Assembly: GCF_001895925.1 (NCBI RefSeq)
Contig: NZ_MPPI01000006.1
Coordinates: forward strand, 62,001-126,000
Source of the DNA: Phormidesmis priestleyi ULC007
GTDB lineage: Bacteria; Cyanobacteriota; Cyanobacteriia; Leptolyngbyales; Leptolyngbyaceae
Reading direction: 5' to 3'
Length of the DNA stretch: 64,000 bases
The position numbers and the translations under genes are program-made. This document shows positions 24,552-60,377 of this stretch, one piece after another (positions within the stretch are counted from its first letter, which is position 1; the number at the start of each line of letters is the position of its first letter). The notes beneath the pieces are model-generated. The model saw nothing but the letters and a program-made list of their open reading frames with translations, did not search any database and was not told the origin of the DNA.

Positions 24552-24589
24552 GATCGGAACTCCTAACTAAGCTTTAACGATTTAATTTA

Positions 24590-24783
24590 ACGTCAGTTCG
24601 ACGAGTTTTTTCGCTGCGTTGTCATCGGCTTCTGCCCCCTAAATCCCCCATTCTGGGGGACTTTGAACCGGAAATTTTGGCTTGAAGTCCCCCAATTTGG
24701 GGGATTTAGGGGGCTTCCCGAATTTACACTGCCTTCGGCTCAACAAAGCTGCTCGGAGCGAACCGCTTCTGTCGAACTGACGT
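24590..24783. mobile_element. MITE, ACGTCAG-end family (copy A)
   Basis: Non-coding element of 194 bp. Ends are ACGTCAGTTCGAC (left) and the complement GTCGAACTGACGT (right). The palindromic core runs from CCCCCTAAATCCCCCA through TGGGGGACTTTGAAC to GTCCCCCAATTTGGGGGATTTAGGGGG-like sequence. The flanks TAATTTA (24583-24589) and TGATTAA (24784-24790) agree at 5 of 7 positions, so the target duplication has decayed or the match is chance. It lies between leuS and the anti-sigma gene. Confidence 0.8.
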
Positions 24784-24909
24784 TGATTAAACTATTGTGA
24801 CACTTTCTACTCACCACAGAGGTAATTTGCTCGATGAAGCAAGTTGGCAATAAAAACAATCCGCAGCCAGACTGAACGACTGCGGACTATGAGCTAGAAG
24901 AGCCGATTC

Positions 24910-37934: not shown

Positions 37935-38086
37935 TTTTTGATGCATCCATTTGTTTAACTTCGGCTACGATAGACCGATGTTAAATAGTTCTTCTGCAAC
38001 CTGTCTTTAGATAGATTTATAGTTCTTCAGCCCTATGTAACTTAGAGGCTTATTTTCTGAGCCGTCATTTTAAGGCAGTTAAATTA

Positions 38087-55647: not shown

Positions 55648-55799
55648 TCACTTCCTCTGTGAGTAGTTAGTCCATTGGGTTTCGTCAGGCTCGCATAGGG
55701 TAATAATCTGAACGACGATCGAGACTCTCAGCACTTCAAGACTTAATATTGCAGAATTCGGCGCACACTCGCGATCGGGCAATCTGATGTTAACTATTT
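55648..55799 (-). pseudogene. Remnant of a DUF4258-type toxin gene
   Basis: The minus-strand frame ending in TGA at 55648-55650, two bases before the antitoxin ATG, reads VSIVVQIITLCEPDETQWTN and ends YSQRK. This resembles the C-terminal strand and tail of DUF4258 toxins (V.VIT.YEPD...W). Upstream, LPDRECAPNSAIL resembles the preceding PSC-L-L block, but the middle is missing and no start is seen. The toxin-antitoxin order fits. Identification is by eye and tentative. Confidence 0.4.
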
Positions 55800-55950
55800 T
55801 AAGTTTCGAGTTAATCTGCTGACGTTGCTGAATTTGCCCTCATCCTCTCCCAGGGGGCGCTACTGTATACGCACAAAGTGTTTGTCGCTTCGTTGGAGTC
55901 GGCTTTAGCCCCCTAAATCCCCCATTCGGGGGGACTTTGAACGGATGAAG

Positions 55951-56313
55951 CTATCTCTCGATCGCGTTGGTGATCTGCTGTAGAACACGCCTTAAATCTG
56001 ATATCACTTCTCGGTTACGAAACCGGATGACTCGATATCCCAAATGATTCAGTTTCTCAGTTCGAGCGGCATCATACTCCACCTGCTGATCGTGAATTGT
56101 GCCATCAAGTTCAATGACCAATCGATGTTGAGGACAATAGAAATCGACGATAAAAGACTCGATCGGATGCTGAACGCGAAACTTCCAGCCGTTTAGTTGG
56201 CGGTTTTTTAGAGCTTGCCACAGCCTCTCTTCAGCCGGGGTGAGATTCTGTCGAAGTTGTCGAGCCGCAGAAATAATGTTGGGAGTGGTTCCTCGAATGC
56301 GCCGAGAATCCAT
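55951..56313 (-). CDS. DUF559 endonuclease-like protein (Vsr/PD-(D/E)XK fold)
   Basis: Protein of 120 residues. The helix TPAEERLWQALKNRQLNGWK starts the domain, then FRVQHPIESFIVDFYCPQHR and LVIELDGTIH give the acidic catalytic residues (D in VDFYC; E and D in IELDG), and GYRVIRFRNREV the last strand. DUF559 is related to very-short-patch-repair and other restriction-like nucleases. The gene lies exactly in the loop between the two halves of a palindromic element core; its stop is about 10 bp from the left half. Its promoter would have to come from the other half. The role is unknown: housekeeping nuclease, cargo or mobilisation function. Confidence 0.85.
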   Translation of the reverse strand: MDSRRIRGTTPNIISAARQLRQNLTPAEERLWQALKNRQLNGWKFRVQHPIESFIVDFYCPQHRLVIELDGTIHDQQVEYDAARTEKLNHLGYRVIRFRNREVISDLRRVLQQITNAIER

Positions 56314-56451
56314 AAACCTGATGAGTGATGAGCTTCTACAAGAGTGCCCATCTTCTCTAAAGGTTTCTTCTGTCTCAAAGCTTTCTTCTGTCTCAAAGTC
56401 CCCCAGAATGGGGGATTTAGGGGGCTACCCCCAGCGATCGGAACGCAAAAC

Positions 56452-57000
56452 AATTTGTGTGTACACATAAGTCCAAAGGGCTACCGTGTATCCATCAGTC
56501 CTTTCGCTTCGTTAAGAGCGGCTTCAGCCCCCTAAATCCCCCCAAATTGGGGGACTTTGAAACTGAAAGTCTAGGGTCAAAGTCCCCCAGAATGGGGGAT
56601 TTAGGGGGCGAACCCCCAGCGATCGGAACGCAAAACAATTTGTGTGTACACATAAGTCCAAAGGGCTACCGTGTATCCATCAGTCCTTTCGCTTCGTTAA
56701 GAGCGGCTTCAGCCCCCTAAATCCCCCCAAATTGGGGGACTTTGAAACTGAAAGTCTAGGGTCAAAGTCCCCCAGAATGGGGGATTTAGGGGGCGAACCC
56801 CCAGCGATCGGAACGCAAAACAATTTGTGTGTACACATAAGTCCAAAGGGCTACCGTGTATCCATCAGTCCTTTCGCTTCGTTAAGAGCGGCTTCAGCCC
56901 CCTAAATCCCCCAAAATTGGGGGACTTTGAAACTGCAAGTCTGGGGTCAAAGTCCCCCAGAATGGGGGATTTAGGGGGCTGAAGCCGACTGAAACGGAGC
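56452..57000. repeat. 185-bp tandem array, about three units
   Basis: The motif TTTGTGTGTACACATAAG starts at 56454, 56639 and 56824, a constant 185-bp period. Each unit contains the whole palindromic core plus GGGCTACCGTGTATCC, itself a variant of the element's left end. Units are nearly identical, with a few substitutions in the last. The ORFs predicted across them (87 residues, identical) are repeat translations, not genes. Confidence 0.9.
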
Positions 57001-57230
57001 GACGAACGACTTGTACACAGTAGCTTCTCTTTTGGGAGAAGAACGGCTGGCGAGGGCTTTGCCCCACTTCGTGAGGAGGGCAGATCGTCGCCCCTAACCC
57101 TTACTAGAGAGCGCCTTTCAGAAATCAGGAAAGATTTTAAGCGCGAGTGATATGAAAGCGAACTGAACTGGGCAAGTTAGGTTCAGCGTTAGAAGCACAT
57201 CAACCCGCATCTTTAGGAGACACTCTTTCC

Positions 57231-60197: not shown

Positions 60198-60377
60198 GCT
60201 ACTGTGTACACACAAGGTGTTCGTCGCTCCGTTTCAGTCGGCTTCAGCCCCCTAAATCCCCCATTCTGGGGGACTTTGAAACTGGAGTCTCGGCTCAAAG
60301 TCCCCCACTCGTGGGGGATTTAGGGGGCGAGGATCTCGGCGATGACGAGATCAGAAGACTTGGGTGTACACCGTAGC
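60198..60377. mobile_element. MITE, GCTACTGTGTACAC-end family
   Basis: Element of 180 bp with ends GCTACTGTGTACACAC / GGTGTACACCGTAGC and an exact 8-bp duplication TCCCCAAG (60190-60197, 60378-60385). It carries the shared CCCCCTAAATCCCCC core. Removing it and one duplication restores CCTCTCCCCAAGGAGAGGG, part of another common cyanobacterial palindromic repeat (CCCTCACCCC...GGGGATGAGGG). The remainder of the 341-bp gap is that older repeat. Confidence 0.88.

Follow-up and report, generated by a model that had tools for sequence, protein, structure and literature searches.

Among the proteins that live with palindromic repeats, RAYTs (TnpA-REP), the partners of REP/REPIN sequences, are HUH Y1 transposases, and the MITEs and small dispersed repeats of cyanobacteria are elements of ~170-200 bp with terminal inverted repeats. 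Another family of bacterial repeats, known in E. coli since the 1990s, named BoxC or PIT in earlier work and linked to genome instability, has the build of an intrastrand triplex motif (TM), in which a C-block, a loop, a G-block, a loop, and a further G-block follow one another (PMC4666352). TMs occur in very high numbers in cyanobacteria, and triplex formation has been shown in vitro for the E. coli form of the motif; in the accessible part of that report, the authors found no transposase or integrase remnants beside TMs (PMC4666352). None of the papers that we found names a partner protein of the BoxC/PIT/triplex repeats. DUF559 is a widespread protein family of unknown function, and its member YcjD has already been placed in the PD-(D/E)XK superfamily with Vsr among its matches (PMC1189080). 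Our literature search, outside of which most subscription papers and preprints lay, turned up no paper linking DUF559 or YcjD with repeats and no report of DUF559 cutting these repeats.

The window analysed here is a stretch of 64,000 nucleotides from Phormidesmis priestleyi ULC007, and the unit under study lies at 55859-57024. An earlier note on this DNA had claimed that a complete DUF559 gene sits inside the loop of a palindrome, with its stop about 10 bp from the left half. We found that an intact 120-aa DUF559 endonuclease-like gene (55951-56313, minus strand; Pfam DUF559 E 2.8e-40) does lie between inverted CCCCCTAAATCCCCC halves, with one core half at 55909-55923 on the plus strand and its reverse complement at 56410-56424, and that its stop is ~10 bp from the CTTTGAA closing the left half. 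The left half (55909-55933, plus strand) carries the triplex motif C5-TAAAT-C5-loop-G5, and the right half (56400-56424, minus strand) carries C5-loop-G5-ATTTA-G5; the TM form read in the window core is C5-AGAAT-G5-ATTTA-G5. Since the reading frame stays open 5' of the DUF559 ATG (157 aa), the exact start of the gene is not fixed, and an 18-bp tandem repeat (56354-56398, 2.4 copies) lies between the gene start and the right half. The further claim that the whole is one element bracketed by GTGTACAC-type ends stands only in part: the outer ends are there, GTATACGC of the GTGTACAC type ("family B") on the left (55865-55872) and TTGTACAC on the right (57011-57018), both listed without a strand, but the interval is a composite of the gene unit and a tandem array of 185-bp short units (56393-56979, 3.2 copies, 98%) that is continuous with the gene unit's right half. 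Internal GTGTACAC copies lie in the interval at 56459, 56644, and 56829. None of the seven Rfam matches (E up to 0.1) in 55700-57200 is an intron family; all seven are miRNA models far below their gathering scores. Tried as a defence system, the window gene gave only a weak restriction-enzyme match in PADLOC and was rejected as a candidate.

A Pfam scan of the window protein and 86 aligned proteins returned DUF559 and MTES_1575, with a few carrying DUF2726 or PvuRts1I-like_N, and revealed no HUH domain, so that DUF559 lacks the HUH Y1 transposase domain of RAYTs. Eight columns are invariant over the 86 aligned proteins, including E28, D57, E68, D70, and H74. When the window protein was modelled with AlphaFold2 (mean pLDDT 87.7), the closest solved structures were 3hrl, an endonuclease-like protein from Neisseria, and 3r3p, the catalytic domain of I-Bth0305I, while PvuRts1I and Vsr were weaker matches. 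Both the profile comparison (E 5.5e-5) and Foldseek on the model (E 6.4e-5) relate the fold of the protein to that of I-Bth0305I, an EDxHD/Vsr-like homing endonuclease; for Vsr, E was 1.2e-2. Across ten pairs, dN/dS was 0.04-0.30, so DUF559 is under purifying selection and the enzyme is being maintained.

In the window genome, PF04480 matches at three places, and inverted core halves flank two of them, the window gene and a second locus (L002) that is decayed within the DUF559 gene and looks like a decayed gene-bearing copy; the third match, a weakly scoring frame of 73 aa, has no core. A congeneric genome (G001) carries the same DUF559 gene in the same kind of element (L043), with dN/dS of 0.28 between the two, and by eye the locus seems to have the same neighbours on both sides, one of them a trxB-like gene. 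The 3.3-kb G001 locus contains no tandem array of the 185-bp type. Since G001 has the gene at the same place without the array, the gene was, most simply, in place before the two genomes split, and the array is younger and was amplified from the right arm.

The core is far more abundant than the gene. With one mismatch allowed, the 13-mer core has 20 matches in the window, all of them exact, compared to 0.01 expected, and the exact 15-mer core occurs 439 times in the window genome (208 + 231). Among the first 100 of these 439 places listed, 78 form 39 inverted neighbour pairs and 22 are unpaired. The halves are spaced 62-66 bp apart in 33 of the 39 pairs and 20, 44, or 88 bp apart in the others, so the short elements are mostly uniform units, and the uniform loop described earlier for them holds among the places listed. 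A single long hairpin is the predicted fold for the entire core of a short element. Solitary, geneless elements include one with GTGTACAC ends (family B, 60204-60371) and one with the same core and AACGTCAGTTCGA ends (family A, 24589-24784); other family A ends lie at 38086, 38247, 48393, 51523, and 53750, and both families in the window have the terminal inverted repeats of MITEs. The elements of the AACGTCAGTTCGA and GTGTACAC families at 24589, 38086, 51523, 53750, and 60204 have one core in common while their inner arms differ, so that it looks as though different MITEs had each received the core. The earlier note had also suggested that the short MITEs are deletion derivatives of the gene-bearing form. 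This origin is not supported, since the 39 pairs have a single main size and no intermediates up to the gene-bearing length, and many short elements are also present in several genomes without a strong DUF559 match (51 core halves in G006 and 32 CCCTC-type matches in G008).

Since the window core shows the TM build, with a C-block, a loop, a complementary G-block, a loop, and a third G-block, we tested DUF559 genes in general for neighbouring TMs. Our strict detector, which searches within 300 bp, was applied to 58 cyanobacterial genomes around that of the window, in which we examined 52 loci of the ~90 matches listed (30 given by the search, 20 chosen by score, and 2 others of the window genome). 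A TM was found at 47 of these 52 loci, and on both sides at 34. As a control we used Uma2, another nuclease-like family, with 30 genes in 30 of the same genomes, and the strict detector found a TM at one of them and on both sides at none. The window genome (G000) has 44 Uma2-family matches (E up to 1e-20), and at L092, the one examined, there is no TM beside the gene. Since the detector had been built while viewing part of the DUF559 loci, it was frozen before being applied to held-out cyanobacteria, where it found TMs at 46 of 63 loci and on both sides at 34 of 63, compared to ~8% expected from the surrounding DNA. When we searched across bacteria with YcjD and took the best 80 of 278 loci, 63 had a strict TM and 23 had one on both sides; 32 of the 80 are from Enterobacteriaceae (one labelled Chryseobacterium) and count as few events because they are mostly one inherited site. 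Many of the sampled loci are related by descent, and none of these counts is a count of independent events.

The strict detector missed 35 loci, cyanobacterial and other, and at many of them G/C palindromes of this build can be seen in variant form. With these misses in view, we designed a relaxed detector, restricted to 200 bp, which picks up 30 of them and loses two strict-positive loci (L070 and L076); it was left as it was for the controls and then for the plasmid loci. It finds TMs at 130/135 cyanobacterial, 45/48 other, and 27/33 enterobacterial DUF559 loci, compared to 1/30 for Uma2, 11/151 for shifted slots in the same loci, and 0/12 for methylase homologues. For a set from plasmids, we fetched 12 loci, chosen by coverage, from 20 listed of 45 records, leaving out one locus already used, two-piece or low-coverage matches, and clinical isolates; one of the 12 (L352) was excluded as the same DNA as a held-out locus (L128). 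The 11 fresh loci come from Photobacterium, Azospirillum, Sphingomonas, Sinorhizobium, Sphingobium, and Deinococcus, with two Azospirillum brasilense loci being near copies. All 11 had a relaxed TM, 9 had a strict one, and 5 had TMs on both sides; the relaxed background away from the genes was 6 in 12 kb of the 12 plasmid loci. In the bacteria sampled, the palindromes usually stand no more than ~100 bp away from the DUF559 gene. Downstream TMs, where detected, start no more than 25 bp from the domain end in 27/34 loci of other bacteria and 25/27 of Enterobacteriaceae, and no more than 100 bp from it in 93/97 of cyanobacteria. Lack of association at other DUF559 genes would have spoken against the tie proposed from the window, and the first, held-out, and plasmid sets show the opposite; the proposed partner, the CCCCCTAAATCCCCC family, is a real core type but was drawn too narrowly, as the partner is the wider class of TM palindromes. 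We regard the DUF559-TM association as almost certainly genuine, and a functional partnership between the two as highly probable.

We found that the repeat type follows the phylogeny of the DUF559 protein and not the host. The cyanobacterial repeats near DUF559 are of the window core type at 54 loci and of a CCCTCxCCC type at 56, with no strict match at 24. On a tree of 133 DUF559 proteins, core versus CCCTCxCCC requires 8 changes over 110 labelled rows, and each repeat group versus the rest 12-13 changes, while shuffles average ~42 and none of 500 was as low; the tree has few columns and many open forks, and the result does not depend on single forks. To remove host effects, we shuffled types only inside each host family. 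In 97 of 110 cases, the closest protein belonging to a different host family has the same repeat type, compared to a mean of 59 and a maximum of 78 in 2000 shuffles. The window's own host family holds both types (19 core and 11 other). Since the repeat type tracks the DUF559 lineage rather than the host, a relation like that of RAYT to REP, which had been drawn as an analogy from the window, fits.

The ycjD gene of E. coli K-12 is a DUF559 gene, as confirmed by search, and its stop is 168 bp away from TM no. 9 (1351204-1351239) of the published E. coli set. Comparison of NC_000913 1351162-1351821 (L083 3163-3822) with L350 shows either ycjD and BoxC or the eefRABCD efflux operon between fabI and sapF. 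The K-12 form of this interval is covered to at least 80% in 3330 of 5426 genomes, and ycjD and the TM are jointly absent where a sequenced E. coli strain has eefRABCD; in that strain, collinearity stops 42 bp before the TM and restarts at sapF. From this comparison, ycjD and its TM are present or absent together, which does not amount to evidence of movement; in the accessible part of the published source, the site is interpreted as having lost eef (PMC12817139). The ycjD start is overlapped by a perfect 16-bp inverted repeat, CACCTCATTCTGACAA / TTGTCAGAATGAGGTG (L083 3759-3801), which is unrelated to BoxC in sequence.

DUF559 genes occur in two layouts. In the first, the gene lies in the loop of a single palindrome, as in the window, L002, L036, and L043; in the second, it lies between two complete palindromic short elements in direct repeat (L038, 103 bp at 98%). 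The earlier description of the gene as exactly in the element loop is therefore right for those four loci, but many other DUF559 genes are placed between two complete elements. A single genus (g93) includes six species with the second layout, at 89-98% identity. The unit of G218, which spans 602 bp when both short elements are counted to their outer edges, served as reference. On the right, the matches of four of the five other species extend 5 bp past the outer edge, and that of G261 stops at the right element's inner edge; on the left, the matches end from 32 bp outside to 46 bp inside the outer edge. Flanks differ between the g93 species, except for a common right flank in G195 and G159. 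In the search for a g93 empty site, the G218 flanks looked rearranged, and G267/G257 was rejected as a clean empty site because its flanks differ by several hundred bases around another small gene. A ~195-bp repeat in the same genus (L267 3148-3342), with many copies at 93-100% in G195, G159, and G261, is apparently a recently active element of another kind. In a second genus, a 75% match between two species coincides, within one base, with the stretch that opens with the upstream TM and closes with the downstream short element, and the flanks of this locus had no match in the other 25 genomes (E 1e-20) except for short elements. Matching blocks end inside a TM on the right in 14 of 32 cases compared to 7.4 expected, and on the left in 9 of 32 compared to ~7, which gives weak support to TMs as boundaries on the right side only.

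Two MmeI-like methylases (L037 and L038; Pfam MmeI_Mtase for L038) carry the unit in frame at the same place, between AEW and YIVSNPPF codons, with ~4 residues replaced. The empty site is represented by 12 homologues that read AEW-(Q/P)EADYIVSNPPF or close variants (a thirteenth, partial, was left out), and all 12 lack a short element at the site, so the methylase units need not have homed into a pre-existing element. In one of these homologues, that of G082, a sister DUF559 is present at another position of the frame. Besides L037 and L038, DUF559 lies in long frames at L041, L052, L055, L056, L058, and L062 (1013-1423 aa) and at L054 (770 aa), with repeat-encoded peptides such as LPSPLAPLPEGEG, and methylase-nuclease fusions may have been created in this way. 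On the plasmids, a DUF559 gene lies between sufB and sufC in Sphingomonas (L363) and between paaD and paaZ in Deinococcus (L362), both of which are conserved gene clusters.

The earlier note had left it between DUF559 as cargo and DUF559 as the active component of the family; of this, a RAYT-REP-like relation in which DUF559 belongs with the palindrome beyond chance is supported, and an origin of the short elements as deletion derivatives is not. We lean toward the reading that DUF559 is the cognate nuclease of TM palindromes and spreads in a homing-like manner, for which we infer both the cutting and the copying by repair. The DUF559 gene and the palindrome would be two halves of one selfish unit, in which the single-domain nuclease would recognise its own palindrome, either as sequence or as a folded hairpin or triplex, and would nick or cut there. 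Repair would be templated by the gene-bearing copy, with the palindrome arms as homology, and the gene would thereby be copied into or beside another palindrome, a homing into a repeat and not into an intron. The short elements would be both the target and the resident population, formally as REP/REPIN is to RAYT. Homing of this kind would explain the lineage-matched repeats, the gene in the loop or between elements, the chimeric ends, the turned genes, and the units in unrelated places. It does not explain the methylase sites unless a short element arrived first in that lineage. Counted against it are the short elements in genomes without a strong DUF559 match, the methylase empty homologues without a short element, the moderate size of the block-end excess, and a Caulobacter DUF559 protein (VsrA) that its experimenters treat as a mismatch-repair enzyme (PMC12907096); in cyanobacteria, moreover, an ordinary transposase could be what moves the MITE-like outer ends.

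DUF559 may instead act as RAYTs properly do, as a transposase that multiplies the short elements genome-wide while the gene itself is rarely copied, which we consider unlikely. A genome has at most ~5 DUF559 genes and up to 457 core halves, the element size is uniform in the 39 pairs among the places listed, and the TM count, summed over two patterns, has a median of 19 in genomes with a strong DUF559 match (n=38) compared to 3.5 in those without (n=20), a difference with a one-sided p of 9e-4, uncorrected for the genomes' kinship, that we rate as modest. The number of DUF559 genes, however, does not correlate with core number (Spearman 0.16, p 0.23), and elements abound in several genomes that lack DUF559. 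We know of no joining activity of a lone PD-(D/E)XK domain; TnsA, which belongs to the same superfamily and is a subunit of a transposase, acts together with a partner.

Somewhat less likely still is that DUF559 is a chance cargo in the core of MITEs that a DDE transposase elsewhere moves by their ends (GTGTACAC, AACGTCAGTTCGAC, and AGTGCAGGACAAAACT). The GTGTACAC-type ends that bracket the window unit fit such a passenger, and so does a third end family seen by eye in G234 (five copies) and G204, where L221, L257, and L126 share their outer arms up to a AGTGCAGGACAAAACT-like end on both sides; the gene orientation relative to these arms is reversed between L221 and L126. Yet the same core and DUF559 clade recur in several unlike end families: family B in the window, B and A ends together at L002, and the other end in G234 and G204. 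L002 has an end of GTATACAC type on the left and GTCGAACTGACGTT on the right, one from each of two short-element families, the outcome expected from an exchange inside the core that they share. The g93 unit, moreover, ends at or near palindromes, and a cargo is unlikely to give lineage-matched repeat types in unrelated bacteria. A plain host function, in which DUF559 is a Vsr-like repair or restriction enzyme and the palindromes regulate or terminate its transcript or are tolerated there, draws on the Caulobacter VsrA phenotype (PMC12907096), the structural likeness to Vsr and PvuRts1I, and the in-frame place inside MmeI-like methylases, but is very improbable given the full palindromes often found on both sides, the lack of such repeats at Uma2, the high-identity units in different contexts, and the genes placed between genes of one pathway (sufB-DUF559-sufC).

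A long-unexplained bacterial repeat family now likely has a partner enzyme, and the link gives testable roles both to DUF559, as a nuclease acting on folded palindromic DNA, and to the repeats, as a family spread by that nuclease. Since E. coli K-12 has both ycjD and BoxC, the idea is testable there. It is quite possible, though we hold this wider view only tentatively, that DUF559 and TM palindromes form minimal mobile elements (~600 bp) found across bacteria, whose nuclease would recognise folded triplex-capable DNA, with the BoxC/PIT and CCCCCTAAATCCCCC repeats as non-autonomous members and YcjD as the E. coli enzyme. If true, the few proteins known to live with palindromic repeats would include, next to the HUH transposases, a second class of enzymes with no relation to them.

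Compared to known systems, the short elements resemble cyanobacterial MITEs and small dispersed repeats in their length of ~170-200 bp and their terminal inverted repeats, but differ in that a core and a gene are common to several unlike outer-end families. A MITE proposed to derive from a PD-(D/E)XK nuclease element has a parallel in the hupL MITE and the "YhgA transposase" of Thiomargarita, whose PD-(D/E)XK_2 genes belong to PF12784 and go with other repeats (PMC4853749). The protein is related in sequence and fold to the EDxHD/Vsr-like homing endonuclease I-Bth0305I (PDB 3r3p), likewise a small selfish nuclease gene; unlike that intron-borne type, the window locus showed no intron, and the site recognised would be the repeat itself. 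With BoxC/PIT/TM repeats it shares the build of C-block, loop, and two G-blocks and the inverted pairs of two sub-types, whereas here a DUF559 gene is linked and the accessible part of their description links no gene or enzyme (PMC4666352). Together with homing of the I-Bth0305I type, the nearest system is RAYT (TnpA-REP)/REPIN, where a few-copy gene is flanked by palindromes of a genome-abundant type, which stand as inverted pairs and track the protein lineage; DUF559 genes, too, have inverted palindromes on their flanks, of the type that is repeated in their own genome. Unlike the RAYT-REP pair, the enzyme here is a PD-(D/E)XK Vsr-like nuclease, the palindromes are TMs, and it is often the element's loop that holds the gene, so that the proposed nuclease-palindrome partnership differs from RAYT-REP in its nuclease, its palindromes, and its layout.
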